Below are positions 17,126 through 55,913 of a DNA stretch of 64,000 nt, one piece after another. The notes under the pieces were generated by a model. That model had not been told where the DNA came from and did not search any database. It was given only the letters and a program-made list of their open reading frames with translations. Source of the stretch: Agarophyton chilense (taxonomy: Eukaryota > Rhodophyta > Florideophyceae > Gracilariales > Gracilariaceae); assembly GCA_030374765.1 (NCBI GenBank), contig JARGXX010000113.1, positions 930,001 to 994,000 of the forward strand. Direction: 5' to 3'. How positions within the stretch are numbered: the stretch's first letter is position 1; the number at the start of each line of letters is the position of its first letter. The position numbers were made by a program, and so were the translations under genes.

Positions 17126-17263
17126 GGCGCGACGACGAAGCTTCGCGGCGGACTTCAACACGGTGGCGGTGCGGTGCGGACACGACGATCATGAGCTGAG
17201 CGGACGGCAGGTGGGGGGCTGGAATATGCTCGCCGGGACGCGAAAGTTCGGCGGACGGGGATT

Positions 17264-19024: not shown

Positions 19025-20007
19025 GCTGATCGTTCACAAGTACACTTTGTCAACCACGGACGCCATGCCTTCCGCCGCCTTTATGCCACTGTCGAATGTC
19101 AGCACCGATCTCAGCTCCAATCTCGGCGCCACCGCCCTTCTCATAGCGGCCGTGCCATTGGACGCTGCGCGCCACCACGCGTGCAAAATCCACGGCGCGT
19201 TGCTTCAACCTGGCTGACAGCACACTGCCGCTACGGCTTACAGCATACTGCCCATTGTTTACAGTGTTCCGCTACTTACAGCTTGATGAGCTGCTTACAG
19301 CTTGCCGAAGCGGATTGCCGGAGTGGTGTGATGATGTCAACGGTAGAAGGAGAAGAAAGGAACGTCATCGAAGAATGCAACGAAGAATGCAACGAAGAAT
19401 GCAACGAAGAATGCAACGAGCGGAAGACGCGCGGGCGTTGTGATGTGCCGGCGGGGAGCTCGTCGTCGCGCTGGGCAGGGCGCATGACGCTTTGCTTCCC
19501 TTCATTAACAAGAGTCCCTGTGGCTGCCTCGGCGCGTCTTGGTCGCCTTCGTCCGTCAGCGCGCCATCGCTTTCGTTTATGTACTGTAACATTACATACA
19601 GACACGCTCGTGTAATCGCTCTGCTCCCGCCAATACTGTTCTCAACCTTGTCTCATCACATCACGTTCGCAAAACTTGCTACTGTGTCGCCAGTCAACAG
19701 TTGTTTCACTCCAAAAATCAAAAAGTTGCGCCAAAATGGCCCGCACACAAACACCCTCCCCATACCCTGCCTGCTACACACCCGATCCGTTCCGCCCGCC
19801 CACACATCATCATCGCAACTTGTGTGATTCACAGCTTTACATAAATTCCCCATCTTGTCACCTGCGGCCCGTCCCCTTCCTCCAACTCCCCTCTTACCCT
19901 CGCCCTCAAGCAGCCCAGTGTGCGTCCTCACCGTCTAAACGCCCTCCATCGTCGCATCATCCAAACGTTTACCGTTCCTTGTGTCCAACAGTCCAAGAGT
20001 CCAAAAC
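19025..20007. promoter_or_regulatory. Divergent intergenic region between TspO copy 2 and the kinase fusion
   Basis: About 980 bp. It contains the 12-bp tandem repeat at 19370-19417 and a C-rich, Pro-coding-looking stretch before 20008 (CTCCCC, CACACATCATCATCGC). Open frames on both strands are low-complexity shadows. No promoter element is certain. Confidence 0.4.
19370..19417. repeat. 12-bp tandem repeat (four copies)
   Basis: Four perfect copies of GAAGAATGCAAC in tandem. In two frames it reads as repeated Glu-Glu-Cys-Asn or Arg-Arg-Met-Gln, but no gene is supported around it. Confidence 0.9.
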
Positions 20008-22347: not shown

Positions 22348-23487
22348 TCAAGAAGAGCTGGTGCCGGTCGGAAGCGGCAACTCAAAATAGACATACGGAT
22401 AAAAGTCTCTATCGGCTATGATTCCGGGAATGTTAGTTACTTCATCAGATTCAGAAATTGCAGCCCATGATCCGCCCAAATGAGCAAACATTTTGCCGAG
22501 TTCCTGACGTAGGCGAGCCTCAGACTTGCCCTTGGGAGCGAGTAATGCGACTTCAAAATTAACAGGGAGACCGTAGCGTAGCACACTCTCGGCGAAAGAA
22601 CGCAATGCCTTCAGATGAACCATAGCTATGAAGGTTTCGGCGAATGCGGTTTCCGTCCACTTTGTGAAAGTTGAGAGCTGCTCTTCGGAGTCTTCCTTGA
22701 GACGCTCTTCTTCAACAGCGGATTCGGTCCTTGCATTTGGATTGAACTTGAAATCGCGAACAGTGTACCTTCGTTCCCTTGCAGCACTCTTGAAATCGTC
22801 AACACTCTTCTTGAAGACAGTAACAGCGTAGAGAACATACTCCTGGTCGGATGCAATAACCTTTGCCGAGCGAGGAACGACAAATTCAGCTAGTTCTTCA
22901 TAACGGGTGAGGAATTCATTTTCGTTGTAAGACGGAAAGACGACAAACACTGTGGTCAAATGCTCGGTTTCGACGACGTGATTTGCTTCCACAATGGTAG
23001 ATAAAGCGCGCGTCATAAGATTTCCCTGAGATCGGCGTTCAATGGCGGTTAGCGCTTGACGGGTAGTAGTGTAGTCATTAAGCCTGATTTTCATCTCTTC
23101 CTCAAGGCGCATGACTTGCTCCATAATAGCGGATCGAATCTCGGACAGTGAATCGAGTGGGGTGAACTTAGCCTCGTCCCAAAGAAATTCTGTGACATAT
23201 TCGAGGATGTCGATGCCATCGACGAGCGGTAGAGCAGTGGATGAACCCACGAGGTCGCGATATTGACGCAGAACGCGATCGACAGTTGCTTCAAGGGCTT
23301 TATCATCTCGCGAGATAGCGTCCGCGACAGCGATAAGCGAATCAAGAGTTCCAACACGAAACTGGGGGAGCTGAAGCAGATAGGCATCGCAGAGAGCTGC
23401 CTTGTTCTGGAGCGAGCCCTTTATGGAGTCGAAGGCTGAGAGCTGCTCGCCATTTGGGGCGGAGACGACCCACAGGCGAACGGACAT
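22348..23487 (-). CDS. ATP6V1C: V-type proton ATPase subunit C
   Basis: 379 aa from ATG 23487, the normal length of subunit C (about 375-390). It opens RLWVVSAPNGE and carries the family's long helical foot and head pattern: FRVGTLDSLIAVADAI, VDGIDILEYVTEFLWDEAK, the basic QGNLMTRAL element, YTVRDFKFN, WTETAFAETFIAMVHLKALR, and FYPYVYFELPL at the C-terminus. Subunit C links the V1 sector to the stator and controls reversible assembly of the vacuolar proton pump. The start is clear because the family begins a few residues before the W. No intron, which is typical for the window. Confidence 0.95.
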   Translation of the reverse strand: MSVRLWVVSAPNGEQLSAFDSIKGSLQNKAALCDAYLLQLPQFRVGTLDSLIAVADAISRDDKALEATVDRVLRQYRDLVGSSTALPLVDGIDILEYVTEFLWDEAKFTPLDSLSEIRSAIMEQVMRLEEEMKIRLNDYTTTRQALTAIERRSQGNLMTRALSTIVEANHVVETEHLTTVFVVFPSYNENEFLTRYEELAEFVVPRSAKVIASDQEYVLYAVTVFKKSVDDFKSAARERRYTVRDFKFNPNARTESAVEEERLKEDSEEQLSTFTKWTETAFAETFIAMVHLKALRSFAESVLRYGLPVNFEVALLAPKGKSEARLRQELGKMFAHLGGSWAAISESDEVTNIPGIIADRDFYPYVYFELPLPTGTSSS

Positions 23488-24019
23488 GATGGAGACGGAT
23501 GAGAATTAACGAAAAGAGGGCGGAGGATGGGAGGAAAGGCGAATCCGGAGGACTTGGGGACAGAGAAAATGGTTGGAGGCGATGAGGTCGGTCGGTTACG
23601 ACCAGGTGATGGCGATAGGGCATAGCGGCGCAATGATGCATCAGACCGCAACGCTGCGAGGCCACCACGCTGCTGCCATCTGTAACTGAAAACGACACTC
23701 TTTACGGCAAGTAGCCATGCTCCTTACACCCATTGAAACGTGGCCACGGCGACACGTGAAAGCGGTCATTCGTTGTGCAACGTGTATGGTCAGCAGATCA
23801 GATCCACGTGAACTCTAAAAGAGGTAGATATCTTTGGAGCTAACTTACACATGTCTTGTTTTAAATAATTAAAATTGGAATATACCTCAGGGCTGTCCTG
23901 GAACGGACGCATCCGAATCAAACGCATTTGTTATCTACTATGTGTTGTACAGTTCCTAAAACCGACCCAGTGCTCGATCCGGTCGTGGTCATCTCCGATC
24001 GCCTTCGCCTCCGACGAGA
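23488..24019. promoter_or_regulatory. V-ATPase C upstream region
   Basis: 530 bp between a minus-strand start and the 3' end of the next minus-strand gene. The open frames here are Ser/Pro/Arg-rich shadows. A GATCAGATCCACGTGAAC stretch near 23795 includes a CACGTG box, which could bind bHLH-type factors. This is only a sequence match. Confidence 0.3.
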
Positions 24020-37117: not shown

Positions 37118-40100
37118 ATGGAATCAAAAAGTCTAAAGATACGCATTCAACCCTTTGAAGAGAAACATGATTACAAATTGTGGCGAATTAGCATCGATTC
37201 TACTTTTCAAGCAAAAGGAATCTGGTATGTTCTTTGGCAGGTTAGAAATCCCTTCACCTCAGATGAAGAGAAGAAAGCCGAGTGAGAGTTCAGTAGAAAG
37301 AGAGCTAGTGAACTGATTGTCTCTGCTCTTTCGGATGAAGCTCTGCGCGTAGTTCAGGGCGACATTGGAAACCCGTGCAAAATGCTGAAACGTCTATACG
37401 ACCGCTTTGCGTCGAAAACAGCAGCTTCTCGCATTTTGAAGATGTGCGAGGTAATCAACATGCGGTATTCTAACATCCAACAGAATATTGGCCGCCATAT
37501 TGATAAAATGGCTGGCGTTATCGACCAACTGGCAGCAATGGATACAAAACTTCCGGATGAACTCTCAGTAGCTCTCTTGGTATCTTCCATCTTCGCAACT
37601 GAGCTCCATTCTGTTTGTGCTGCAATGAAAACCCTATCTTCGGAGAACACGACTTGGGAATATGTTGCCTTTTGTCTGCTTGACGAAGTCAGAACAATGG
37701 ACACACACAATTCCGAGCAGTCGACTGCTGCGCGCCCAAAGTGCGCTATTTGCAGCAAAATTAAAAACACAACTGCTCGGTGTTACTTGAATCCTTTGAA
37801 GCCAAATAATCGTCTCAAAAGGTCTGACGATCTATTGGATAAGAACCAGAATGAGAACTGTAAAGAAAAGGTCTCTAAAGGTAAACAGAAACCCACAAAT
37901 CGTGCCGCCGTATCAAGAGCATATACCATGACTGCCAGAGCTCCCAAAAACAATGGTTTGATGCTGGACTCTGGTTCGACGGCTCATTTGACTTCTTCTT
38001 CTAACCAGCTTGAGAAAAGCTCCCACTGTAATGTTCCGATTGCATTGGGTGACAACTCCGAAATCACGGCGTTAGAGAAAGGTGTGATGCCAGTGAATTG
38101 GTCACACGATGGGGTGACCACCATGGTTACTCTCAGCAACACACTTGTCGCCCCGTACATTGCCATGAATCTTCTACCGAATCCCGCACTCACGGCGAAG
38201 AAGCTAGCTGTTCTTTTCCTTCCAGAAGTTGCACACATTATTGATCTTACGGACAATCTAAGAATTATCGGGAGCGCTCCACGCAGTACAGATGGGCTGT
38301 ACTACATTGCTGTAGATTGCTCAACAGCAACTGATTCCGCTGTGTCTCATCCCTCTCAGCAAACGTCCGCTATGATGGCCCGTGTACAGGACATTTTAGC
38401 AAGTCCTGTTGACAGTGATCTTGAGTCGGACTCGGAATGCGCTTCAGGTCCAGATTCTGCTTCTTCCATGGCCACGGAAGACAACTCTACATCTAAAGAT
38501 GTCACCGAGGAAATTAATGTTTCTAATAACGACCAAAATATAAGTGTTCGGGCAGGAGATGTTGCCCTTTGGCATAATCGTTTTAGACACACAGCAACAA
38601 AGTCAGAAGTAAAGATTTTGCTTCAAAAGCAACTACTTCCGATTATTAGAAACCGAACACCGGAGTGTATCCCCTGTGTTCAAGGAAAGTTTCGTCGAAG
38701 TTTTAATGGTTCTCTCACTTCAGCGTCACGACCAGGTCATCTTCACATGGATATCGCCTACGTTGGAACTGAGTCTGACAGAGGACATGCTTACTATTTG
38801 GTCATCGTTGATGAATGCACTCGATACCTTTTCTCTGCACCTCTTGTCAGAAAAGCTGATGCCTCCGCTATCATCATAGAGTTTGTCAAATGGTTTAAAC
38901 GTCAGTCGGAACATTCGGTGCTGTCCTTTCATTCAGATGGTGGTTCAGAGTTTTTCAAGGCGCAGAAGGCCTTAAAACGCGACGGCATCGAAATCACTAC
39001 AAATTCAGCGTACTCTCCGTCATCCAATGGTTTGGCCGAAAGAAACGTAAGCATTCCCATGGGACCAATTCGTGCATGTTTGCAACAGGCCAACCTTCCT
39101 CTTTCATTCTGGCCGGAGGCTCTACGCCACGCAGTATTCTGCAAAAACGTGAAGATTCATCACAGCACTGGAAAAATTCCCTTTATCTATTTATTTGGGG
39201 AGCTTCCCCATGATATAAAACACCTCCGCACATTTGGCTGCAGAGTGCTTGTCGAATCTAATCCAGATACTCGGAAGAAAATGGAATCTCGTCTTCTTGA
39301 AGGTATCAATCTTGGACATATCTGTGGTGGAATGTACAAAACACTCACTAGAGATGGAATTAAGCATACCAAACATGTCCGCTTCCTTGAAGAAGAGTTT
39401 CCAGGCCTATCACTTGTCAATGAGACATCACCTCATTCACGATTCACTTCAGAATTTGTTTCTGCTGGATATGAGTCAAGTGATAATGAAGATGATACAG
39501 CATCAGAACCCAGAAACATATTAGTCTCCACCAATGAAACTGACAATGATTCGAAGGACTCCACATGCAGTGCTTTGAGTTGACTCACTCAATACCCCGA
39601 GAATCCTTCCACCTACGATCCCGACTTAGGTGGGTACCCGTCTGACTTTGCAGACGAGACTGTTAATGCAGCCCGTACTCTTCCGAACACGATCAGCTCT
39701 GCAGACGAACCTACTTTGAAGCAGGCACTTTCTTCCCCTTAAGCGTTTCACTGGATGGATGCCATTCGCGCAGAATTCGAAACAATTCGTGCATTGGGAA
39801 CGTATTAAGACGCCTCTTCCAACCATGGTCAACCCATTCCTTCAAGTTTCATATTCCTCTTGAAACGAGATCACTTTGGAAAACCTATTCGATTTAAGGC
39901 CAGATTGGTTGCTCGAGGAAATTTCCAACACATTTCCGATTCAAACAGCCTTTATGCACCTGTGCTAAATTTTGAAAATTTTCGTGTGATACTGGTAATC
40001 GCTACGGCTTTGAAGTGGGATCGTCAACACATCGATGTAAAGGGTGCTTTTCTTCATGCAACCACGCCTGCGGACAATCCAGTTTGGATCAAACTCCCTA

Positions 40101-40390
40101 GAATTTCTGGAGCGGACGAAGCCAATGGACGAATTGTCAAACTCGTGAAGTCCCTGTATGGCACAAGGGAGGCCCCAAGACTCTGGTTTGATAATTTATC
40201 TGCTTATCTATGTTCCATTGGCTTTACTCTTCTGCAATCAGCACAGTGCGTTTTCATAATGAAGGAAGGTGACGATATGGCCGTTGTCTTGGCTTACGTA
40301 GATGATCTCAGCATCTTTGGCCCTCCTAATCTGACAAAATGGGTCAAAAAGAAGCTTTGTGAACATTACGACATTTTGGATCTAGGGAAA
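37118..40390 (+). pseudogene. Copia gag-pol, 5' part (gag, protease, integrase, RT start)
   Basis: Starts ATG 37118. Gag of the UBN2/copia type has a TGA near 37282. A CX2CX4NX4C knuckle (CAICSKIKNTTARC) has Asn where His is expected. The protease site is DSGSTAHL near 37972. The integrase has the HHCC zinc region (LWHNRFRHT and CIPCVQGK) and a DDE core with HLHMDIAYVG, FHSDGGSEF and SSNGLAERN. RT has ARLVARGNFQ, DVKGAFLHA and the catalytic YVDD in VLAYVDDLSIFG. Stops at 37282, 39581, 39740 and near 39806 break the frame. Reading stops at 40390, where the nested gypsy element begins inside the DLGKT/LYLG region of RT. Confidence 0.9.
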
Positions 40391-40395
40391 ACCGA

Positions 40396-41111
40396 TGTAG
40401 TATTCTACTATGTCGGGGAATCCGATATGTTGGTTTTTCGCGAAGTCGCGGTTGGAACTCATAAGTGAGTGATGTCATCAAAATTGTGATATGAAACGGC
40501 ACCCCGCATAGGATGCCTAGAGGCAGAATGTCTTAGTGGAACATGTGGCGTTATGGGTCGAGTAGCTTACCACGGCGCGTGCATAGTTGCGACCCTTCCT
40601 AGGGGAATGCCATATTGGCAACGGCGCATGTAGTGGCGATCCACGTGGAGGGCTTTACTACCCTTTGTAGCCAGACGTCCATTAGGGACCATACCCATAC
40701 AGTGGTTTGGCTAAGTGGCTGACCACTGGGTATTATTTATATATTTATTTGGGCACTCACCCTGGTACACAGTATATAATGTACCAGAGGTGAGCGCCGA
40801 CTCCGAGTAAAGGAGACAACATGGGCATCATGACTATTCTGTTCCTCGCTTAGGATTCCTTAACCGGAGATCCGGACAAGCTATAATAGATAGTCAGCCC
40901 CCAACCACTTCACGAGCCGTCTCGTACCTACGTTCCATCAACGTTTTACAGTTGCACGGTTCACCCTCGCTGGCGAGTAGTGGCCTTACACCACACTTCC
41001 AGCTCGCTGGTGTTGTAGCTCTACCATCCCTTTTCCTTCGCCGCAAGCGACCCATCGGCAGTCCGAACGCTGTCGCAGGTGTCTGCTCTCTCCGTTAGAG
41101 CGGATACTACA
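40396..41111 (+). repeat. 5' LTR of the nested Ty3/gypsy element
   Basis: Starts TGTAGTATTC, ends GGATACTACA, an 8-bp inverted pair. It contains TATTTATATATTTATTTGGGC near 40733 as a possible TATA region. Most of its differences from the 3' LTR lie in the first 350 bp. Confidence 0.95.
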
Positions 41112-41441
41112 AGTGTTCTCCCCGACTTAGAACCACTGTGGTCAGCTGCACTGAACAATTCGTTCCTGGAACGTGGAATCGATATCGATACTTGGAAAAA
41201 GTGAAATCACTACAGTTATTGTTTATCGAACCACCTCCGGCAATTGCGGAATTCATCGTGGTTGAACACGTGTTCGAGAAGTCGAAGACAACATTTGGTT
41301 CGCACCTGGACTCAGGTATGGTCTAGGGTGCCGAAGACCCGAAGCCAGTGGAGTACTGGTCGCCCGGGTCCTGCGGGACCACCCCCGAAACCGAGGCTCG
41401 CCTCATCTGTTGAAGCCGGAGAGCGGCTGTATCGTCAAGCG

Positions 41442-43480
41442 ATGTCGCGCTCACGCTCGGTGAATGATGAACGAGATCTCTCGGATGTACCGGCCCCTGT
41501 GGCAGCGGCAGTCGCGCTCACCACAGAATCCATAGTTGACCCTGAGGTCGTCGGACCTCAAGAAGAGGATGATTTGCGCAGGGAAGTGCGTCGTCTCAAG
41601 TCTGAGTCAAGCGCTTCGCGTGTGCGCATGGTTGCGTTGGAATCGCAGATCGCTGCTCTTATCGCTGATGTCGAACAATTACGCAGTGCGCATCAATCAC
41701 TCGTTCGTCAAGACGATGGGAAGCAGGTCTCTGCATCAGTGAATACATTACGTGAGGATTTGAACCATCTACTGGAGAGGTACGGGAATACGCCCGATGC
41801 GCTACCCGGCTTAACCGTGGATGTAGAGGAAGTTTTTACTCGAGTTAACCCTCGTTTAGAGCGCTTGGAGGCGGCAGTTCATGCGCAGAATGCTGCTAAA
41901 CCAGTCGTGTGGGAAGAGGAAGGAGCTCCTTTGAAGGAAACTCGTTCGAAGAAGTCGAAGTCACGACGTAAGACGCGGAAGTCCGCACGTGATTCGAGTG
42001 ATGAATCGTCAAGTACGGAGGGCTTCAGTTCCAGTACTGATGATTCTGATGATTCAGATACGTCAGATGATGACGACAGTGATGATGGTCATCGAAGGTC
42101 CCGATCTCGGAAGAAGAACACGTCTTCGTGGTTGGTGAGAAAAAAAAGGCTCACCTTACAGAGGATTGAACGTGCTCCCGTGCACGAATCCACTTTATCG
42201 GAAGGTCCTGAATTACAGGTACTACCGTCTGAAGGTGAAGAGCAAGAAGCGCTAAGGACGCAAAACCGCGAAGGTGAAGGATCACATCAAACGATTGAAG
42301 ATCGGCCTTAATGATTTAACATTTGATGGGAAAACCCCCATTCTCGTTATCGAGTTTCTCACTCGATTCGTTGCCGAAGCAGACACTCTAGAGATGAGTG
42401 AACCACAGGCATTTGTGTCTTTACCACACTTCCTGAAGGGTTTTGCTTTAGAGCAATATCGTTCCGTATGCGGATCATTGACAGCCGATGAAGGCGGCGT
42501 TACCTCATGGCCAGAGGCGGTGCAGTATTTGCTGCGCAGTTACGCGACTTCAAACGTGATACGTCAAGCGATCCTGGACCTAAGGGATGTGACCCAAAAG
42601 CCTGAGGAGGGCGAAGCTGAGTACAGCTCAAGGCTTAACAAAGCTTCAGTCCGCTATGGAAACGTCCAATCGACGGAAGACAAGATTACCTCGTACATCG
42701 ACGGGCTGGACCCGAGCATCAAGTCGTTGGTAGCTCGATATAGAGAGAAGCATGGAAGAGTCTCCTTTGGAGTTAGTTCAGTTTGCGAAAGCTGAAGGAG
42801 ACGCAGCCAGAGCGCGTAGTAGCCCCCGTCGTTCAGTGGCTTTTGGAACCTCAATGGGTAAGGAGAAGGTCTCCGCCAGAGTTAATCAGCGCAGCAAACT
42901 GCTACATCTGGAATCTTCAGTTGACTCGCGAGATTCGTCGTTGGCACCCAAAGGGAGCGACTCGCATGAAGAGGCTGTCTATCTAATGGAATGTACGGAC
43001 TCTTCTGTACCTACAGTGGATCTCCCACACTCGGAGTCTCAAGACGACGAAGCCCTACTGGCTATGGAGGGCCGTCTCCCTATGTACCGTCCCTACACGG
43101 TGCCTCCACAGGGAGGTTTTAAGAACGGGAAACCCGTATGGGTGGATACTCGCACGGCATACCGTTCACAATTTATGTTGACCAACCGTCGTGACGGTTT
43201 GATATGATATTCATGTTATGGAAAACACCATTTGAGTGCAGAATGCATGCTTCCTGCAAAGGATTTGAGTCGTATCATGACCAATTATGAAGCCCTCTCA
43301 GAAGAGGAAAGCAGTCGCATACCGGCGGGCATGTATTGGAAAGCGAAAAGTTGGTTTTCTCATACCCCAATGCGCCGGACGGACAAGCCGGTTGCTCAGA
43401 AAACTGAAGTGTTACAACCCGGAACCCCGGTAGGAAGAGGCGCCTTTGAGGGGAATAAGCCTGTGCAACCGGAAAACTAA
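41442..43480 (+). pseudogene. Ty3/gypsy gag, broken
   Basis: The first frame (ATG 41442) gives a coiled coil (EEDDLRREVRRLKSESS) and a Ser/Asp-rich acidic plus Arg/Ser-rich linker. The capsid-like part is in the next frame from about 42274 (FLTRFVAEADTLEM, LPHFLKGFALEQYRSV, EEGEAEYSSRLNKASVRY), and a second frameshift near 42750 moves to the frame ending 43480. In that last frame a CX2CX4HX4C knuckle reads YSCYGKHHLSAEC. The position of its first Cys is a TGA (43205-43207). Gag would form the particle and bind RNA. Two frameshifts and one stop prevent a full product. There is a 132-bp leader after the LTR, and no clear tRNA-binding site was found. Confidence 0.85.
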
Positions 43481-43521
43481 GTGAGGGAGCCCCTAGGGGG
43501 TCGGCAGTAGTCGATCCCGTA

Positions 43522-46188
43522 GTGCTGACCAGGGAGAGCTCGCCTCCCTGCTCCCGCGCTTGGAAGCCCAAGATTCTCTTGAGGCCTCCCAAATCTCCGC
43601 CGTACGGAATCAATACGCCGGACGGAAAGCGAGTACAGTTTGACTGTGAGTTACATCGTCCTTGGAGATGTTATACTTGTCCGTCAAAACGGGAAAGTTA
43701 CCTCATGGTAATGTCTAAAGGAAACTATAAGGCCTATGCCGACATCGGCTCTGACAGGAATCTGTTATCTCGTCGATTGACTATCCTGGACACAGGTGCT
43801 GGTCCGAACTTTATACGGGAATCGGAGCTCGCTCCTGCTGACTTACAACGTATTCGATACGGTCCTTTACCGGACATCCGGGATGCCAACAAAAACGCTG
43901 TGAAGACACTGGGAACAGTTCGACTCGTGGTGCGTTTGGGACGCTTTGTAGTCCTAGTCGACTTCATCGTCTGTAAGACGTTAGCTGCACCAGTGGTACT
44001 GGGATGTGATTATTGCGACAAGTTTGTCGAAGCCCTTCGCCCGCGAAGAAACCTAGTGGAACTAGATGATGGATCAATGGTACCAATTGTTCGCAAGCCA
44101 ATGCGTCGTTGCTCTGAAGCACCTTCACTTCCACCATCTATAGAATACGGGAAATCCCGAGGACATGTCTCGCCAAGGATTCGAGTAGCGAAGAGTGCCA
44201 TGCTGAAGGCGCAAACCCAAACTTGGGTTCAAGTAAGAACAGAACGACACGGACTCGTGGTAATTCAACCGAATACTCGGATGTACGAATCCCGTGGATT
44301 GCTAGTCGCTAACGGCATTGCTCAGGTTGATCCTGGTAGCCCCTTTTGGATACTAGTGAGTAGCTTCACCGATAAAGATTATCATATACCGAAGATTCAG
44401 GTTGTTGCAACAGCTTTGCCTCATCCCACAGTGGTGGTCCCTACTCATATTTCTACCGCAGAAGTATTGGGATTAACCCATGTCGGTGACACAGACGAAG
44501 AACTGCAAACTCTGTCTGGAGATCAATTGCAAACGGCAAAGGATCCAGAGAGCCTGATCGATGAGCTAGACTTAGCACATGTGTCGGAACCCTACAGAAC
44601 GATGATCAGGTCTATGCTGAAGAAGTATACATCCATGTGGAGTGGAAAACTAGGAGAGATCTCCGCTACGGAACACCACATTGATTTGGTCCCAGGGTCA
44701 CGACCCATCTCCCAACCACCCTACAGAGCGGGACCGCGAACTTGCCAAATCGAAGAGGAGAATGTCAGCAAAATGCTGGAAGAAGGAGTAATCGAAGCAG
44801 CTCAATCTGCTTGGGCCTCACCAGTGGTGCTGGTTCAAAAACCTGATGGTTCTTTACGATTCTGTATTGATTATCGAAAACTGAACGCAGTTACAGTTCG
44901 AGATACATACCCGTTGCCTCTAATGGACGAATGTATTGAAAGCTTAGGAGAAGCGAACGTGTTCACCACGTTGGACGCCAACTCTGGCTATTGGCAGGTG
45001 CCTGTAGCGGAAGAAGACCAAGATAAAACCGCATTTGCGTGTCACGCCGGTCTCTACCATTTCAAAAGGATGTCCTTTGGCTTAACGAATGCACTGGCTA
45101 CTTTCCAGCGTACTCTAGACATCTTGCTCTCAAGATACAAGTGGAAGACTTGTTTAGTGTATTTGGACGATGTGATCATCTTTTCCCAGGATGTGGAAAG
45201 CCATTTACGGCTTGTCGAGGAGATCATCAAAGCACTACAGAGCGCAGGTATTACCTTTAAGTTCAAGAAATGCGAAGGGTTCGCTGGTACCGTCCGGTAT
45301 TTAGGACATGTGATCAAGCCGGGACAGCTTGCCATTCAAGAGACACAAACAGCGGCTCTCCGCGAAGTACAACCTCCGTCGACACAGAAGCAATTGCGTT
45401 CTTTCCTCGGCTTGTGCAACGTCTACCGACGATTCGTGCCGCGATACTTGCATATAGCGGCACCGCTCAACGCCAAGCTGCGTAAAGGACAACCAGTACA
45501 GCTGGAACAATTCAGACAAGCGGAAGTGGAATCGTTCGACACGCTGAAGACAAAGATTATTACATCTCCAGTCTTGGCGCTGCCCATCCCCAACCTGCCA
45601 TACTCAGTGGATACCGACTCTAGCGAGTACCAAGTAGGGTGTGCCCTTTTTCAAACACACCCTGATGGTGAACGCAAACCCATTGGTTACTGGTCAAGAT
45701 CGCTGAATGCAGCTGAGAAGAAGTATTCAGTTTCAGAAAAGGAATGCCTTGCAATCGTTTGGGCTCTAACCACACTGCTACTGTATCTCCAAGGAGAACC
45801 TTTTACCGTCAACACGGATCATTCGTCTCTACGATGGTTACTGTCCATGACAGACCCGTCTGGTCGTCTCACACGATGGCGCTTGCGCCTTTCTGAATTC
45901 GATTTCGAAGTGAATTATAAGAAGGGATTGGCCAATGTCCAAGCTGACGCGCTATCGCGACTCAAAACACTGTGCGAAACCCAAGGCGAAATCGATGAAG
46001 AGATACCTTACTTCTACATGGAGACCCATTCACCATCTTTTGAAGAAGAAGAACAAAAGACCATTGATGATTATTCGGATGCAGACCCGTTCCTTGAATT
46101 AGCAGACACTGACCCTTCAGTTCAACTTGAGCGAATCTCGTGCATTGAGCTTCTCAATGAGCAACACGCCAATACCTTTTGTGCGTAG
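43522..46188 (+). CDS. Ty3/gypsy pol: protease, reverse transcriptase, RNase H
   Basis: 888 codons open, in the -1 frame relative to the last gag frame, and open upstream so that the two overlap. Protease: ILDTGAGPNFI with the flap and VVLGCDYCD. RT: VQKPDGSLRFCIDYRKLN, FTTLDANSGYWQVPV, and the catalytic YLDDVIIF, plus the thumb LGLCNVYRRFVPRYL. RNase H: VDTDSSEYQVGCALF, SEKECLAIVWAL, NTDHSSLRWLL and ADALSRL. All the catalytic Asp residues seen are in place. The stop at 46186 (TAG) then interrupts the link to integrase. The first listed start is GTG; translation more likely enters by frameshift from gag. Confidence 0.93.
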   Translation: MLTRESSPPCSRAWKPKILLRPPKSPPYGINTPDGKRVQFDCELHRPWRCYTCPSKRESYLMVMSKGNYKAYADIGSDRNLLSRRLTILDTGAGPNFIRESELAPADLQRIRYGPLPDIRDANKNAVKTLGTVRLVVRLGRFVVLVDFIVCKTLAAPVVLGCDYCDKFVEALRPRRNLVELDDGSMVPIVRKPMRRCSEAPSLPPSIEYGKSRGHVSPRIRVAKSAMLKAQTQTWVQVRTERHGLVVIQPNTRMYESRGLLVANGIAQVDPGSPFWILVSSFTDKDYHIPKIQVVATALPHPTVVVPTHISTAEVLGLTHVGDTDEELQTLSGDQLQTAKDPESLIDELDLAHVSEPYRTMIRSMLKKYTSMWSGKLGEISATEHHIDLVPGSRPISQPPYRAGPRTCQIEEENVSKMLEEGVIEAAQSAWASPVVLVQKPDGSLRFCIDYRKLNAVTVRDTYPLPLMDECIESLGEANVFTTLDANSGYWQVPVAEEDQDKTAFACHAGLYHFKRMSFGLTNALATFQRTLDILLSRYKWKTCLVYLDDVIIFSQDVESHLRLVEEIIKALQSAGITFKFKKCEGFAGTVRYLGHVIKPGQLAIQETQTAALREVQPPSTQKQLRSFLGLCNVYRRFVPRYLHIAAPLNAKLRKGQPVQLEQFRQAEVESFDTLKTKIITSPVLALPIPNLPYSVDTDSSEYQVGCALFQTHPDGERKPIGYWSRSLNAAEKKYSVSEKECLAIVWALTTLLLYLQGEPFTVNTDHSSLRWLLSMTDPSGRLTRWRLRLSEFDFEVNYKKGLANVQADALSRLKTLCETQGEIDEEIPYFYMETHSPSFEEEEQKTIDDYSDADPFLELADTDPSVQLERISCIELLNEQHANTFCA

Positions 46189-48300
46189 ATACGCTCTCGT
46201 CTTAACGGGGGGGATGAGCTCCCGTTTTCACTCGATTCAAGGGGAATACTGTTCAGACATGTCGAAAAGCATGATCAAATCGTGATTCCACACGTCTTGA
46301 AGAGTCGAGTACTTCATCTGGCACACTACATCAGGCTGTCTGGTCATCCAGGAGGAACGAAGTTGTTCATGACTCTAAGAAGAGATTTTTACTGGCCTAC
46401 TTTGGCAATAGACTGCCATGCTACAGTGAGGTTGTGTACAACATGTGCGAAGAATCGCGTGAAGCTTTACAGGAAGCGGAAACCGATGACGTTATTCCAG
46501 GCGAAAGCGCCTTTACAATACGTCAGTATCGACATCCTAGGGGAATTGATTCGCTCAAGGCGAGGTTATCGCTACCTATTGGTAATCACCGACCGCTTCT
46601 CGAAGCTAGTGCGGACTTTGCCGCTGAAGCGGATAACCGCAGCCGTAATCGCACAGGAGTTTATCAAACAGTGGGTATTTATATATGGACTACCAGAAGT
46701 TCTGTTATCAGATAATGGGAAGCAATTCGTTGCGAAGTTCTTCCAGAATGTTTGCCGCATTATGGGCATTCGAAACGTGTTTCCCACGACCTATCATCCG
46801 CAATGCAACGGTCAGGTGGAGCGTTTCAACCGCACGCTGATAGCAGCATTACGACACTACATCGCGGACCACCCGAAAGAATGAGACATGTTTACAGATA
46901 CTCTGTGCTACGCATACAATACGCAAGTGCATACCTCTACAAAGACGGCACCGTTCGACGTCGTGCTGTCACGTAACCCTCCGGCTTTACCGGTTGCGCT
47001 TGACGACGAGACAGAATTGGATGCGCCGACCCCGGCTAAGTACCATCTGAAATGGAGGAATGACCTGAAGGCCAGAGCGGAAGAAGCCGCTAAGGAGTTA
47101 TCAAAGACGCAAGCTCGCTAAAAGCGAAACTATGACGCCAGAAGGCGAAGAGGAAATCCGGCAATCCGAGTAGGAGGTCACGTCTTCGTGCGAGTCGAAA
47201 GACCGGACGAACAGGAAGAATCTCGTCATAAGTTGTTTCCGATAGCGGCTGGACCCTGCAAAGTGGTGGACCTTAATGAAGACACATTGGTCATCAAGAC
47301 AGGTGAGGACGTTGAACGTGTATCGCGCGATCGCGTGGAAGTCGCGCCTGACCCGCAAGTGTAAGTCGAGGTATCTGGTAGAACTAAGGAAGCAAGTGCG
47401 ACGGAACGTCAAGGCAAAAGCCCAAGTGACTCTGGGGAGAGTGAACCGTCACCAATGGCTCGAGCGGAGGAGAAAGCTCCTGATCTCCCACCGCCGGCGG
47501 TTGCGTACGCCAATCACGGACAGCTTCCGAAATATCGGGATATGCCCCGTGGCACGCGCACACCCGTAAGTACAGAAATGGAACCTGAAAGCAGGAAAGA
47601 TGTTTTGGACTTTGGCGCCAAGGACTTGGAAACGAGTGCACGCGAAAACGCGCCGTTGCTGCTTTAGGCTGATCCGTCAGGTGAAGCGCCACTCGCTGTT
47701 CCGCCGATATCGGCTCCCATCCCTCGTGGGCAAGAAGAAGAAGAGGTATCGCCTCCTGTCGTGGTGCAAGCACCATCGTCCACCCAACAGTGGTCTGAAT
47801 CGGATACACCGAAGGAAGTTCATCCACGAATGGAATTGAGAAGTAGCAAGAAGTATGCTTCTATGGAACCTGGAAAACAGGATAGATCTTTATCTGAGAA
47901 AGGTTTTCAAGGAAGGAGTACACTGCCCCTGCGGGCAGAACGACAGTTAGTCGACGAGCGAACGCTTAGAGACGCTGAGGCTGCTAACACAGAGACGCTT
48001 GGGTCAGCCCTAAGGCATTTCAAACCTGTGAACAGGCGTCTCGCGCCAACAGCGAAAGCATTGGGAAACGCCCAGGAATATGTTATGGATCGCATATGTG
48101 AACATGGCGAGCATGAAGATACTAGAGAATTTCTGTATCGAGTCCGTTGGTACGGTTTTCCTCCGGAAGCGGATACGTGGGAACCTATAGCTCATATCCC
48201 CCGTTCGCAGCTCGTGCGATATCATAGACGCATGCGATTACCACTCCCCAGTGAGATCGACTCCTCGATAATCGGGCTCATGGGCACATCCCATCTCTAA
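46189..48300 (+). pseudogene. Ty3/gypsy integrase and chromodomain, with stops
   Basis: The HHCC zinc region (LAHYIRLSGHPGGTK, CTTCAKNR) precedes the DDE core: SIDILGELIRS, LSDNGKQFVAKFF and HPQCNGQVERFNRTLIAAL. A TGA at 46882 follows HPKE. The C-terminal part continues (FDVVLSRNPPALP) to a TAA at 47119 and a basic KRNYDARR stretch with the GPY-like GPCKVVD. Near 48080-48240 lies a chromodomain: FLYRVRWYGFPPEADTWEP then IPRSQLVRYHRR. Chromodomains on gypsy integrases direct insertion to modified histones. Here the stops and frame changes break the polyprotein. Confidence 0.87.
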
Positions 48301-48410
48301 GTATGAGCTACAAAGGTAGTAAAAACTCGAAAGGTGAGAAGAAAACAAGAATTCATGTGGAAGAAAAGTGAAAACACGCAAGCACAGGACATTTACTGAT
48401 TATCACCTAG

Positions 48411-48490
48411 GAAGAACTCGAGAATCGAGAGAAGAACGATTGAAGAACTCGAGAAGCGAGAGAAGAAGGATTGAAGAACTCGAGAAGCGA
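48411..48490. repeat. 31-bp tandem repeat in the gypsy element
   Basis: Nearly three copies of a unit starting GAAGAACTCGAGAAGCGAG, between the chromodomain and the end of the antisense frame. Confidence 0.8.
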
Positions 48491-48638
48491 GAAGAGATGA
48501 AGACTAGAAGATAAGAAGGGAACGTGAAGACACGAAGTCACCGGAGTTTTATTGGTATCAAGATACCACCGCAAGGTTGACTAGGAGTCTTTTCTAGGAT
48601 CATCAAAGAGACGTGCGAGCACGCAGGTTCGCAAGAAG

Positions 48639-50429
48639 CTATGCGCGAATACCCTCAACTTGGTCCACGGGAAAGCCCGCGTCTAAGAAGAACTGCCTCA
48701 GCGGATCCAATCCTGGATCTTCGACCGGCACTGCAATCGGTTGTTGGGTAAACCCATGAAAGTTTTCTTGAGCAACTCCCACCGCTGCGGATTGATCGAC
48801 GGAAGTCGCTACGCCTGCCAGCTCTGGCTCGTCCTCGTAACCGAGTTCAGCCTCAGCTCCCGGCGCTTCCTCATACAGTTCCTCTCCGTTCTCGGATGGA
48901 GTACCATCGTACACGTATCCAGTAAGCTGGTTCGGTTGCATTTCACGCAGGTTCTCCCGAAGAAAGCGAGCCTGCTCGGAGGTGATCAATTGGCGCGTCC
49001 AGGGATCGTACCAAACGAAATCTCCAGCACTTGCTGTTCGTCCAGGAGAATGGTCGTGGTGTCTTGCACGGGTTCCGCGAGCGGATTGATCAGCTGGCAC
49101 TACAGACCAATCGACACTGTCGATCAAATCCACTAGATGGAGGAAGTCGGCATGGTTTGCACGGGATCCCAGGACAAGGGAATGATGGAGTTCTCTCACA
49201 TACTTTCGCGCTGTGGGCGACATGTACCAAACTCTAAAGGTATCATAAGCATCCCACAGGAGGAAGAAGGCCATCTTGGCGATAAACGCGGTATAAACCA
49301 CCGTCCAATATCCCGAGAACGGGTTGTTAACCAACGCGAACCCGATGTAGGAGATAACCGGTGGGAGCTCCACAGGGTAACCACGAGGACTCTCGATTGC
49401 CGCCCAATGCTCCGGAATACCGATGTAGCGCCCGAAGCGCGCGTTCCACCGGATGCGGTGAATCTCGATTATTTGATACGGCACCAAATAGCCCAAACGT
49501 GATCGAGTACGACGTTCCCAACGGGGATAATCCCAATAGGGAATGTCACGATTTCGAAGGAAGCGGAACTCCGCACGGAGAAGAGGTTGCTGAAAACAGA
49601 GAGCTGCATCACGCACACCGCGCACACCGCGCCAACCGCTAACATCGACTTCAACGAGTGTCTCGATATACGAGTAACCTTCACCGTCGGAACGGTCTTT
49701 CCAGGTATCTAGTTCCCAGTCCTGCGGGAGGAGAACCGTACTGATGAATCAGTGAAGACGCTGGTAAATCAGCTTGGTGAACCGCGTACGGGCTTCGGAC
49801 AAGGTTTCCGTTGAATATCGCGGAATCGCGTTGTCTGGCAAAGCAATATGGCTCGCCCAGTCGTCGCTATAAATCGCATGTTCCGGAATACCGTCAGGGA
49901 AGTACCCACCGTGTACATACTGCTGTATCGACGCGTCATCGCGGATAGCAACTGGATCAAACCAGGGCGCTTGCGCGAAAAGTTCAACGTTGTCGAGAGG
50001 ATCTCGTCCATAGAAATCCGCAGGGCGCGGGTAGATCCGCTCAGCACGACGAGAAGGAGCTCGAATCACACCCGCAAAGGCGACGTAAGCCACGTTCGGC
50101 ATCGGAGCCACGGTTGGCTGAGGTAACGGTACCGACCGTAATCAGGTGTACGGTGTGGGGAACGAACGGTATGGACTGATTTGAGCAGTAGACTGCGACG
50201 CATAACCAGCAGTATTAGACGGAGCCCCAGAAGGCACATGCTCAGGGGAGTTCTGAAACGGGTTGGACCCGGCGTTCGGATCCATCGCGAGAGATCGAGC
50301 TGAAGAGCGGTGAGGAACAGAATGCTGTTGAGAACTGTAAGAGTTGGTCGGGCGGCGAGGAATTCGTGATGACGATGAGTACCCGGAACACCGGTCCGAC
50401 TGCGTATAAACGCTTCTTGCGTCCCCCAT
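48639..50429 (-). pseudogene. Antisense reading frame (596 codons) inside the Ty3/gypsy element
   Basis: On the minus strand a single frame runs from ATG 50429 to TAG 48639, broken only by TGA at codons 96 (50142-50144) and 227 (49749-49751). It starts 25 bp inside the edge of the 3' LTR. The product has a Ser/Pro/Gln-rich N-terminus (about 1-95) and a globular middle with many Trp, Tyr and Arg (IPYWDYPRWERR, WNARFGRYIGIPEHWAA). A hydrophobic stretch follows near residues 355-391 (WTVVYTAFIAKMAFFLLW), then an acidic C-terminus. The sense strand here is closed. Antisense ORFs are known in some plant gypsy lineages, but I do not recognise this one. Both stops could come from CGA by C-to-T change. 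Confidence 0.72.
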
Positions 50430-50443
50430 GGTTCGCGCTTAAC

Positions 50444-50450
50444 GAGGGGG
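50444..50450 (+). promoter_or_regulatory. Polypurine tract of the nested gypsy element
   Basis: GAGGGGG, followed by TTA and the 3' LTR start TGTAG at 50454. This is where plus-strand DNA synthesis should be primed. Confidence 0.75.
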
Positions 50451-50453
50451 TTA

Positions 50454-51168
50454 TGTAGTATTCTACTATGCCTGGGAATCCGATATGTTGGTTTTTCGCG
50501 AAGACACGATTGGAACTCATAAGTGAGTGATGTCATCAAACTTGTGATATGAAACGGCACCCCGCATAGGATGCCTAGAGCAAGAGTGTCTTAGTGGAAC
50601 ACGTGGCGTCATGGTTCGAGTGGCTTACCACGGCGCGCGCATAGTTGCGACCCTTCCTAAGGAATGCCATATTGGCAACGGCGCATGTAGTGGAGATCCA
50701 CGTGTAGGGCTTTACTACCCTTTGTAGCTAGACGTCCATTAGGGACCATACCCATAGAGTGGGTTGGCTAAGTGGCTGACCACTGGGTATTATATATATA
50801 TTTATTTGGGCACTCACCCTGGTACACAGTATATAATGTACCAGAGGTGAGCGCTGACTCCGAGTAAAGGAGACAACATGGGCATCATGACTATTCTGTT
50901 CCTCGCTTAGGATTCCTTAACCGGAGATCCAGACAAGCTATAATAGATAGTCAGCCCCAAACCACTTCACGAGCCGTCTCGTACCTACGTTCCATCAACG
51001 TTTTACAGTTGCACTGTTCACCCTCGCTGGCGAGTAGTGGCCTTACACCCCACTTCCAGCTCGCTGGTGTTGTAGCTCTACCACCCCTTTTCTTTCGCCG
51101 CAAGCGACCCATCGGCAGTCCGAACGCTGTCGCAGGTGTCTTCTCTCTCCGTTAGAGCGGATACTACA
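50454..51168 (+). repeat. 3' LTR of the nested Ty3/gypsy element
   Basis: Same ends as the 5' LTR and followed at once by target duplication ACCGA (51169-51173). Its start region lies just upstream of the antisense frame, so an antisense promoter for that frame would lie here. Confidence 0.95.
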
Positions 51169-51173
51169 ACCGA

Positions 51174-52056
51174 CTTGTATCTTGGAGTCTCTATTGAAGA
51201 AAAGCCCACGGGAATTATTCTTCATCAGTGTCCTTTGATTTTGCGAATCATCAACATGCGTCGTCTGAATGAAGCGTTACCGTCATCGTATCCACTGCCG
51301 CAAACGCATTGTCTCTATGATGCAGTAGTAGCTCCTACTGACTCCAAAAAGACCTTTATGCTGAGTGTACCATACAAAAAAGTACTTGGATCTTTATTCT
51401 TTTTGAGCACGCTCACCAGACCCGATCTCGCCACATCAGTTTCCATGCTTAGCAAATTTGCTTCTAATCCTTTGCCTCAACATTGTAATCTTATGAAAAG
51501 GGTGGTGCGTTATCTGATCCACACTTTCAAGTACGGTTTGGAGATTCCGCATTCTTCGTCCACTACTGTAGCCGCGTGGTCAGATGCAGATTGGGGTCGT
51601 GATCTGGACAAACGTCGTTCAAGGGGAGGTTTTGTTATAACCATTGGTGACGTTCCTGTGATTTGGAGCTCAAAACTGCAGAAGTTTACGGCTCTATCCA
51701 CAACGGAAGCTGAGTTCTACGCAGTTTCGGAATGTATCAAACAGTTATCCTGGCTTAAGAACATTATCTGTGAACTTGGAATCAATTGGCATAATCCTGT
51801 ACCATTATATCAGGACAACTTAGGAGCCATATCTTGAACGAAGACCTACTTGGGAATGCGCAAAGTCAAACACATTGAACTTCGTCATCATTATGTATTG
51901 GATGCCGTGCATAACCAGTTTTTTTCAATTCATCATGTCTCGTCTGCCAAAAACCGAGCATACATTTTTACGAAGTCTCTGATTGGCAATGGGTTTACAT
52001 CACACCGTGACGCATTGCGGATTGCGCCCTTAGTGGTCGAGGGGGGATCTCAGTGA
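51174..52056 (+). pseudogene. Copia pol, 3' part (RT end and RNase H)
   Basis: Resumes after the nested element at LYLGVSIEE. RT ends with TRPDLATSVSMLSKF. RNase H has AAWSDADWGRDLDKRRSRGG, LSTTEAEFYAVSEC and LYQDNLGAIS, then a TGA at 51835, then HIELRHHYVLDAV and the C-terminal KNRAYIFTKSL. The active-site Asp and Glu residues are present. The stop interrupts the last third. Confidence 0.88.
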
Positions 52057-52165
52057 CCACCTACTTATAATGCCTTTATATTTGCATTTGTATTTTATTT
52101 GCATTTGCATCACGAGAGCATTGTTGAATTTACATTTGCAGCACAAGAGCATCAGAGAGCATCGT
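52054..52165 (+). repeat. Truncated copia 3' LTR
   Basis: About 112 bp matching the start of the 5' LTR. Similarity ends abruptly after GAGAGCATCGT. Confidence 0.75.
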
Positions 52166-53248
52166 CCAATGTTTACAAAGTCGCCAAAGTCTTGAAGCTT
52201 CTGGTGCAGCAAGCAGTCGATTGTTTCATTAAAACCTTCTTTGACAATGGCTGGACCCATGACCACTATGATGGAAAGGTTTTCGTTTTCGTCTTTTAAG
52301 TGGTGGCATAATTGCTTTTGCAACCAATGCTCTACGCTCCGGGCACTATTCTACTATTTTGGAATGGGTACCGTTTCCAAAGAAGGTTGAGGAAGTTTTC
52401 ACCCCCACGGGAGGAACCCCTCTCGTCTAATCAGCGTTCTGTTGAGCTACATATTTCTTTCTACTCAATTCGTCCCAGGATGTTCCTGCCATTAACTCTT
52501 ACACGACAATCGTTAAGCTCGAAAGTTTTTAAGACTCTACAGACCACCTCGGCGAAACAAGTCTCAAAATGGGACATGCATGCAATGAAAGGATCGTTCC
52601 TGTGGTATAAACCAAAACGATAGCGAGGGAGTAAGACCTGACTGTTCTTTGTAGAACGCCAAGGTCTCGAACTAGAAGGAGGAGATTGAGGATATCTGTA
52701 AGGTGTGGCAGCAACAGCCACTAAGAGATGCAACAGGAACGGCAGGTTTTCTGAGACCACGTTGGTAGACAGTGATGCACAGTGCACGTCGGTCCAAAAA
52801 ACGGTAAAGACACAAGGCTAACCTTTATGGTCAACTGTAGAAACCAAAAGGGGTGAAAGTAGTCTAGGAGGTGCTTGTCATTACAATATTGAAAGGGGTG
52901 GCCATGCTTGGTGAAGAAATCTCTCACCGGCCACCCAATCCACGATGGCGCTCCTCACCACGTTGCTACGAGGAGGTGCCTCTGAGGTGCGCCCCCCTAT
53001 CTACTTACTCTTATCTAAATAATACTAAATTAACGAAAAGCTAAGCTAATTCCTAAATAAACTACTTTAGTACACGGCGCATGCAGGCAATCATCCAGGT
53101 CCACCACCTGGCATAATTACCTTATCGGTGCAGCTCACTATACTATAGATCTCCCTCCTAGCGAAAGCCACGCTCCGTGCCTGTACCTTGGTTCAGCTTT
53201 CGCCAGTGCAGTGTGCCACAGTGCAGCAGTCGCCAATCCCAGACGTAA
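52166..53248. other. Unassigned sequence between copia and the second gypsy
   Basis: Overlapping short frames on both strands, none convincing. A minus frame near 52030-52323 (GPAIVKEGFNETIDCLLHQKL) may be a gene or transposon remnant. The stretch 52980-53090 is AT-rich. Confidence 0.3.
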
Positions 53249-55913
53249 ATGCACGTACGCACCATACTAACCCTCCTAGCTGAGGCGGGGGTGACGCTGA
53301 AGCTACGCAAATGCGTCTTCTTTACCAGAACGGTTGAATACCTGGGCCACATCATAAGCCCTGGCACCCTAGAGGTTGCGCCGAGCAACATTAGAGCCGT
53401 ACAGGAGATCATGTTGCCACGATCCCAGACAGACGTACGATCCTTTATAGGTTTATGTAACGTCTATCGTCGCTTCGTGAAGGGATTCGCGAAAATAGCG
53501 GCTCCCCTCAACAAGAAGCTCCAGAAAGGTGAACCAGAACGGTTTGATAATCTATCGAACGACGAAATGGATACCTTTGAGGAGTTGAAACGAGCGCTGT
53601 TCTCGCCGCCAATCTTAGCGTTACCGAAAACAGGTCTACCGTACACGCTGGATACAGATGCATCTCATGCCCAAATTGGTTGTTGTCTCATGCAGGAGCA
53701 GCAAAACGGAGACAAATTACCTATAGGATACTTGAGCCGTACTATGAATGAGGCGGAGCAGAACTACACGGTAACTTAGAAAGAATGTCTAGCAGTAGTG
53801 TGGAGCATGTTGATGTTCCGTCCATACCTGTATGGTGAGCGCTTTACGTTGCGCACGGACCACGACGCCTTAAGGTGGATCCTCGGACTCGCAGATGCGT
53901 CTGGTAGACTTTCCCGTTGGAGGTGGGAGGTTGCGACTGTCGGAGTTTGAATACGACATACAGTACCGTCCAGGTATCAAGCACAACATAGCTGATGCTA
54001 TGTCACGCTTAAACACCTCAGGGTTAGAGAAAGAATCTGTGGACGATGACATCCCTTGCTTTTTGGTGTCATCAAACCAAAATGGTACCGACAAACACCT
54101 TGAAGGATGTTGGGACTTACCTGAAGAAGGTGCTTTGCGAAACATCGACATGGCAACGCAGATACTGACCCTAGAGGAAACGAACGTCATGCCCGTAACC
54201 CGAGAGGATTTTCTACGAGAACAGGCCCAGGATGCGTACTGCAGAACCCTGGCTGGCCAAATTGGTTTCAAAGGATCACCGTTCGATGTGTACCACATTG
54301 GATACATCGTGAGAAGGTCAACCTTGGATGGTAGCCTTCAAAAGGTGGTTCCGAAGGCACTACGCCCGAGAGTATTGTATCTCGCGCACTATCCGCGACT
54401 ATCGGGACACCCCGGTGCCACCAGGATGTATTACACCTTCTGGCAACATTTCTATTGGCATCATATGGCCCATGATGTCTATACCTTTGTAGGTCAATTC
54501 TAATCCTGTGTTCGTACCTGCGGTGGTATTAGAAAGCATCGAAAGTACCTCAAGCTGTTTCCAGCAGCGGGTCCGCTTGAGTTTGTTGCGATAGACCCTC
54601 TAGGACCACTTCCCAAGACCAAGAACGGGTATCAGCACATTCTAGTGAACACCGACAGGTTCTCGAAGCTCACGAGAGCGATACCTTTAAAGAAGACGAA
54701 GTTAACAACGCTGGCGATCGCGTTCTTCAACAATTGGATCTACCCGTATGGTGCACCACTGTACCTACTTATCGATAATGGTTCAAACCTGGCATCGAAG
54801 TTCTTCGAAGTAGTCTGTAACCTCTTGGGTATCAAGCACTATTTCACTACTGCCTACCACCCACAGACGAACGGACAGGTCGAGCGCTTTAACCACACAT
54901 TGGTATCAAGGATACGGCACTATACGGAAGAGAACCAAACTGGGTGGGATGAGCTGGTGCAACCGCTCACCTACTCCTATAACCTTCAGGTACGCCGGTC
55001 AACGCAAACCCCTCCCTTTGATTTGGTTCTTTCGCGACAACCCCCAGGTATTGTAGTGCAGGGAGATCATACCACCAGCACTGCAGCTGGCGCACTGACC
55101 CCTGCCCAGGTCAAGCGGAATACCCTTGTGAGGTTGAGGAGGGCTCTCAAACATGCAGAGAGCCTCCTCACTGCAGCCCAGAAGCGGTACAAGGCCGAAT
55201 ACGACCGTAGGGTAACCAAAGTGGTCTCTGTATCCTCGTGACAATATGTCTACATCGACAACCCACCTTCATGTAAAAGACCACGACCGGGAGATGAAGC
55301 ATACGATGAAGCTATTGACAGAGATTTCAATTCGAAGCTTCTACCCAAATCAGTGGGACCTTATAAGGTATTGAACACATCAGACCACACCGTTACGGTT
55401 GACCAAGATGGAATACCGAATACGATATCAATTGACCGTATTACGGTAGCACCTGAAACGGTTCAACATCACATGGAGGCGGACACCTCAGCCCAAGAGC
55501 CCAGAGCGGTAGCTCTGCGCACTCGACCCTCGGAGGACCCCACCCCAATTGAGGTGAACGATGACCGTCAACGTGATGATCCGGATTACAACCCTCTAAC
55601 AGGGACGCAAATTGAACCCCAAACGGTAACAGCGGAAGGTCCCGACCCGGCTCCCACACACGAAGCTCCCAACTCGGAACATATGAACCCTCGAGGTAGC
55701 GTTCCCCCGAAAGATCAGGACCAAACCTCAGAGAAATTTCCCGTTGACCGTTTGGTGGGCCAAACTCGAACCGACAATGGTCTGAAGTACACCGTCAGGT
55801 GGTACGGCTGGGGCCCAGAAAGAGACACCCTCGAACCCCCAGCCGCAATACCCCCACACTTCCGTATCAGGTATTGGCGCCGTCGAAAGGAGCCAATGCC
55901 TGCAGACGGCTAA
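53249..55913 (+). pseudogene. Second Ty3/gypsy pol remnant (RT thumb, RNase H, integrase, chromodomain)
   Basis: RT thumb: LRKCVFFTRTVEYLGHIISP and FIGLCNVYRRFV. RNase H: LDTDASHAQIGCCLM, a TAG at 53777 before KECLAVVWS, and LRTDHDALRWIL. A frameshift near 53925 leads to LRLSEFEYDIQY and NIADAMSRL. Integrase: LAHYPRLSGHPGATRMYY, a TAA at 54501, the core FVAIDPLGPLPKTKNGY, LIDNGSNLASKFFE and HPQTNGQVERFNHTL. Near 55760-55900 a chromodomain-like YTVRWYGWGPERDTLEPP precedes the stop. At least two stops and one frameshift, so inactive. Confidence 0.87.

Follow-up and report, generated by a model that had tools for sequence, protein, structure and literature searches.

We identified a long protein-coding frame that lies antisense to pol, between the chromodomain and the 3′ LTR, in Ty3/gypsy elements of the red alga Agarophyton chilense; comparison of sequences between element families makes it nearly certain that this frame is a protein gene under purifying selection. 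Taking all the evidence together, we favour the reading that it encodes a lineage-specific accessory protein of chromodomain Ty3 elements, like the antisense genes of plant Retand/Grande and fungal Boty elements. In the window (the whole 64,000-bp stretch of contig JARGXX010000113.1 that was analysed), this antisense accessory gene, annotated by homology and selection, occupies 48,603-50,429 on the minus strand. A first-pass annotation, made from the letters of the DNA, had proposed a real coding frame there, and homologues in other families with dN/dS well below 1 bear it out.

The host element and the antisense frame in the window

The gene's host, at 40,396-51,168, is a Ty3/gypsy element with a chromodomain by its domain content, its LTRs and its target-site duplication, as the first-pass annotation had said. 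Pfam cut-offs are passed by PF00078, PF17917, PF17921, PF00665, and PF00385, giving reverse transcriptase, RNase H, integrase and chromodomain, with integrase downstream of reverse transcriptase. The duplicated ACCGA is found at 40,391-40,395 and 51,169-51,173, and the element is inserted within Ty1/copia-like coding sequence (ORFs at 39,860-40,468 and 51,136-51,837; copia-type gag and integrase Pfam matches in 37,286-39,580). The 5′ LTR (716 bp, 40,396-41,111, forward strand, TGTAGTATTC...GGATACTACA) and the 3′ LTR (715 bp, 50,454-51,168, forward strand, with TATA-like motifs on both strands at about 50,791-50,835) share 95.8% identity over 718 aligned columns (29 mismatches, 1 gap opening). 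Between them, on the forward strand, are a gag fragment at 42,274-42,795 (PF03732, E = 2.8e-8) and a pol frame at 43,459-48,297 that runs from a protease-like part through reverse transcriptase, RNase H and integrase to the chromodomain; its Pfam matches lie within 43,522-46,185, 46,282-46,881, and 47,761-48,297, and its RNase H matches profile positions 2-105. This copy is broken, since the pol frame has five in-frame stops (at 46,186, 46,882, 47,119, 47,362, and 47,665).

The antisense frame begins with an ATG at 50,429 and runs on the minus strand to 48,639, over 597 triplets: 596 codons, including two internal TGA stops (50,142-50,144 and 49,749-49,751), and a closing TAG (48,639-48,641). 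The family frame is 608 codons long and continues to 48,606, with a TGA at 48,603-48,605; thus the TAG is itself premature, and the antisense gene of the window copy carries three premature stops. The first-pass annotation had the coordinates and the two TGA stops right, and the distance from the ATG to the LTR, which it gave as 25 bp, measures 24 bp. This spacer (50,430-50,453) has a purine run that, from its position, is likely the polypurine tract. The pol strand opposite the frame is closed, also as had been claimed, its longest ORFs (ATG, GTG or TTG starts) being 131 and 121 amino acids long.

The antisense frame exceeds what chance allows. In 1000 dinucleotide-preserving shuffles of the stretch, with the longest run taken over six frames, runs with two stops or fewer had a mean length of 237 codons, with 522 as the longest, compared with the 596 observed; the longest stop-free run in the window copy is 369 codons (shuffle maximum 306), and an unaltered copy elsewhere in the genome (L039) is open for 608 codons (shuffle maximum 270).

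Several other features of the window and the genome deserve mention. Pieces of 40,396-55,910 recur at 100% identity 82,480 bp further along the same contig, C113 (978,639/1,061,119, 974,880/1,057,360, and 984,504/1,066,984), which points either to a large duplication of very recent date or to duplication in the assembly. The forward strand at 53,255-55,910 carries another chromodomain Ty3 element; it is 49% identical to the first over 223 pol residues and belongs to another high-copy family (at least 150 places in the genome), and a search of the window found no antisense gene next to it. The window also contains a 665-codon open frame (15,194-17,188, reverse strand) that matches nothing in Pfam at E = 0.01, a V-ATPase subunit C frame (22,351-23,505, reverse strand) that covers nearly the whole Pfam model without an intron, and a single 689-codon frame (19,939-22,005, forward strand) with nucleotidyl-transferase and GHMP-kinase domains, which we take to resemble a bifunctional fucokinase/GDP-fucose pyrophosphorylase. 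The assembly totals 79.8 Mb. The red-algal setting, a guess of the first-pass annotation, agrees with 15 phycobilisome-family matches in the genome, 14 of them on contig C39, where same-strand phycobiliprotein genes are repeated at a distance of 185,684 bp; this contig is probably a circular plastid genome of 185,684 bp assembled past its own start.

Copies, homologues and selection

The genome holds at least 41 DNA matches to the antisense gene stretch, and a 24-mer of the gene occurs, with up to two mismatches, at 224 places (its reversed control at none). We fetched 40 copies of the window family (family A), and then 20 more. Across the aligned 1.79 kb, ten of the 40 loci (seven distinct sequences) are free of stops; one of the ten, L028, lacks the ATG. 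By a hand count among the matches listed, 37 of 111 places are stop-free in the range matched by the C-terminal 369 residues. The private and shared variants were counted in 33 of the 40 copies (leaving out the gapped L035, L037, and L048 and four duplicates), which have a median pairwise divergence of 5.2%. Private variants fit neutrality (629 nonsynonymous, 249 synonymous and 36 stops, against 633.9, 239.8, and 40.3 expected), so inserted copies decay freely. Variants found in at least four copies comprise 16 synonymous and 19 nonsynonymous changes and no stop (N/S 0.53 of expectation), and for those in two or three copies N/S is 1.13 of expectation. In a test on 56 of the 60 copies, with only duplicates removed, variants in at least five copies gave 22 synonymous changes, 33 nonsynonymous changes and two stops in the antisense frame, a synonymous enrichment with an odds ratio of 1.84 (Fisher p = 0.031, uncorrected for six frames); none of the other five frames was significant in the same copies (p = 0.06-1). 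By itself, therefore, family A gives a weak sign of selection on the antisense frame. The gap counts of the 40 copies (3 in 1827 gene columns, 311 in 501 columns towards the LTR, and 206 in 208 downstream) were set aside as evidence, because the copies were the best matches to the gene, and because terminal gaps, together with a low-complexity stretch, raise the flank counts.

Two outcomes had been named in advance as counting against the frame: copies with stops at the rate of non-coding sequence, and the lack of any open copy. The first is what the private stops of family A display (36 against 40.3 expected); the second is contradicted by the stop-free loci. Inserted copies gain stops at the neutral rate; the conserved frame belongs to the propagating lineage rather than to dead copies.

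We also searched for the gene in other Ty3 families. Loci were chosen from an RNase H profile search (at least 150 matches), and the stretches beyond pol were searched with tblastn using L039 as the query. Two loci matched, L079 and L080 (the latter 37% identical over 438 columns, E = 2e-77), and further homologues reached E-values down to 2e-85. Homologues, antisense to pol, were thus found in four families beyond A: family B (L079, L080, L082, L086-L089, and L092), family C (L083 and L084), family F (L085/L101 and L098), and family G (L081, L090, L091, L097, L099, and L100). A homologous frame, open or decayed, is therefore present in sampled copies of five families. Fully open stop-to-stop frames span 651-652 codons in B (L082, L086, and L087), 626 in F, and 639 in G; both copies of family C contain a stop. 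By hand counts among the matches listed, 49 of 70 places in F and 7 of 69 in G are stop-free in the matched range, and F is the freshest set. Three F-family antisense genes of equal score lie 9,197 bp apart at C68:3,138,100-3,158,347, as a tandem F array or a local duplication. A chromodomain stretch in sense orientation was found by tblastn upstream, in the direction of pol, in B, F, and G loci; its identity is 45-51% between A and G, B, or F, and 53-72% among G, B, and F, so that family A stands apart in this stretch as it does in the antisense gene.

Among the sampled loci, all 18 with an RNase H match to profile positions 2-105 yielded the gene (these were selected by hand from the at least 150 matches, the last 16 once the first two had proved positive), and none of 10 loci with a match at 1-105 (L069-L078) did so over the roughly 2 to 6 kb beyond RNase H that were examined. 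This suggests that the antisense gene is tied to one pol lineage, as defined by an RNase H alignment trait and not by a tree. Seventeen of the 18 genes are directly antisense. The last, L098, looks like an exception, with its F-family gene on the pol strand of the RNase H used for picking it; we infer that it is an inverted F copy nested inside a G element, since a G-family gene at C86:494,558-496,474 is antisense to that same RNase H. A 490-residue antisense frame at L077 was rejected as another such gene: it matches an FAD-binding domain, and is probably a neighbouring cellular gene. As a separate observation, on contigs C44 and C49, equally scoring Ty3 RNase H matches (three and four, respectively) are spaced 6,523 bp apart, like a head-to-tail array of one element.

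At the protein level, family A shares 31-35% global amino-acid identity with B, C, F, and G, which are 46-54% identical among themselves. Across all six pairings of these four families, NG86 dN/dS is 0.22-0.31, and in the core alone three pairings (B-G, F-C, and B-F) give 0.22-0.26; comparisons with family A are saturated at synonymous sites. The first-pass annotation had asked for an intact frame and a dN/dS below 1 in other copies, and it is between these four families, more than within family A, that such values appear. Two F copies compared with each other give 0.71, a value of the kind that recent decay produces. When the B, F, and G copies (selected as open) were aligned and ungapped columns used, the other five frames contained 5-24 stops, with pN/pS of 1.2-1.4 in four of them; the fifth, on the pol strand and sharing third positions with the antisense frame, has a pN/pS of 0.62-0.70 but 18-22 stops. 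Codon usage was no guide to which frame is the true one.

These values bear on two readings in which the protein would not matter. A chance open frame in GC-rich non-coding DNA would gain something from the 55% GC of the frame, which makes long frames less rare, and from the neutral rate at which family A copies gain stops; it is refuted by the comparison across families (596 codons beyond every shuffle, homologues to E = 2e-85, and dN/dS well below 1), and we give it practically no weight. Alternatively, the antisense transcript could act as RNA, through double-stranded RNA or small RNAs, with the open frame incidental. Antisense retroelement transcripts are reported to be able to work in this way (PMC7264820), and convergent transcription with pol could also yield double-stranded RNA here; this would not conserve amino acids, and the amino-acid selection seen (dN/dS 0.22-0.31, with the compared open B, F, and G copies free of stops) makes the RNA reading very improbable.

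The antisense protein and its possible role

Counted from the first ATG of the frame, which outside family A was assumed to be the start, the proteins of the four families measured are 598-645 residues long. Their N-terminal region is basic and Ser/Pro-rich (pI 9.9-12.0), their tail is acidic (pI 4.1-4.4), and between the two lies a conserved core, some 350 residues long, that is rich in Trp, Tyr, and Arg; each protein has 53-67 arginines against 1-7 lysines. The Trp/Tyr/Arg-rich core and the acidic tail described in the first-pass annotation thus hold; its hydrophobic stretch does not stand as a clear membrane segment, with a best 19-residue Kyte-Doolittle mean of 1.2-1.6 in the four families.

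The profile searches that it had proposed returned no relative. No Pfam family exceeded its cut-off for the antisense proteins scanned, there was no PHROG match and no sequence match by profile in PDB, and the viral and prokaryotic collections contained no relative. Up to E = 1, PF04195 matched none of L039, L042, L100, L086, L101, and the 342-residue piece of L083 (HMMER filters discard most matches above about E = 0.1), so the proteins of families A, B, F, and G and the family C piece are not placed in that family. Two AlphaFold2 models, from 12 and 11 alignment rows, have a mean pLDDT of 30.6 and 30.4. L039 had weak PDB matches to heme-degrading monooxygenases (E = 0.06-0.81); these disappeared with a profile (which included L095, one partly out-of-frame piece) and are considered chance, as is an E3_binding match (E = 0.24).

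An accessory role for the element is quite likely. Such a role would require an antisense messenger with its 5′ end in or beside the 3′ LTR, and the LTR would supply or adjoin the promoter. The antisense leader in the window copy's LTR (the one LTR scanned) contains 15 upstream ATGs, the nearest two of which (50,536 and 50,520) are not in frame with the gene and meet no stop ahead of it; the start is therefore predicted within about 90 bp of the gene, or else splicing or reinitiation would be involved. The protein would then help the element propagate, most likely as a nuclear nucleic-acid-binding or regulatory protein, by analogy with Grande and from the charge pattern. We put the chance of a nuclear regulatory activity at a little under even; the collections searched yielded no relative in sequence or fold that points to nucleic-acid binding.

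The accessory protein could instead have another role, as an envelope-like or movement protein, or in host interaction (e.g., against silencing). The gene occupies the position of env-like genes, and homology gives no pointer to a nuclear role; we consider this alternative possible and clearly the weaker one. For an envelope in particular, the proteins lack the expected features: env-like genes are described as sense-oriented (PMC7264820), whereas these are antisense, no hydrophobic N-terminus is visible in the family sequences inspected, and the hydropathy peak stays at 1.2-1.6 in four families.

It is also conceivable that a cellular gene, or a gene of another element, was captured as cargo and kept for its own enzymatic or other activity. 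Gene capture by retroelements is reported in plants and animals (PMC11963269), and the long, strongly conserved Trp/Tyr/Arg-rich core would suit it. Searches of Pfam, PHROGs, PDB, and viral and prokaryotic collections turned up no relative outside these elements; in the alga's own genome, the result lists are taken up by high-copy relatives. In addition, the divergence of the five families to 31-54% identity implies an old, stable association rather than a recent capture, and we regard cargo as improbable. We thus retain the accessory protein as the preferred reading. In practical terms, annotators should be aware that such a frame may be repeat-masked or mistaken for a host gene.

Comparison with known antisense genes

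Flowering plants and the fungal Boty element both provide known examples of a gene that lies antisense between pol and the 3′ LTR (PMC11963269, PMC7264820, PMC8365987). The first-pass annotation had mentioned plant gypsy lineages, which the literature confirms, and the fungal cases mean that such genes are not solely a plant feature (PMC7264820). For decades, antisense accessory genes have been recorded in LTR retrotransposons, chiefly those of flowering plants, with no settled function. We found no description of a red-algal one in the literature titles and abstracts searched, a set covering few subscription papers. A conserved gene under selection that has no detectable relatives, from a distant host and from chromodomain elements, would be an independent case, and its presence in at least five families, with many open F copies (49 of 70 among the matches listed), allows comparative tests of its properties and of the repeated antisense position.

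The closest layout is that of the Retand-lineage plant gypsy elements, whose antisense gene encodes TRP28 (PF04195), a protein described as having no known function (PMC11963269). As in Retand, the red-algal gene lies between pol and the 3′ LTR, antisense to gag-pol, and is kept across a lineage (PMC11963269); unlike it, the window family has a chromodomain, a red-algal host and no PF04195, whereas Retand is a non-chromovirus lineage of flowering plants, and we make no claim of a common origin. Grande gene23 and rice RIRE2 likewise have an antisense gene in the 3′ internal region (PMC7264820), a likeness of layout in which Pfam was the only sequence comparison; the Grande protein is reported to be nuclear, with its gene driven by a promoter lying upstream (PMC7264820). 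Outside plants, Boty of Botrytis cinerea carries brtn antisense between pol and the 3′ LTR (PMC7264820, PMC8365987), in a fungal host and again comparable by layout, not by sequence. The HBZ gene of HTLV-1 is expressed from a promoter in the 3′ LTR and encodes a nuclear regulator (PMC11963269, PMC7264820), and the analogy with it and related antisense retroviral genes is one of layout only. The red-algal proteins probably constitute a new family, antisense in a chromodomain Ty3 lineage, unrelated to TRP28, brtn, and the retroviral antisense proteins, and of independent origin; if so, the same gene layout has arisen convergently, recurring in plants, fungi, red algae, and retroviruses.
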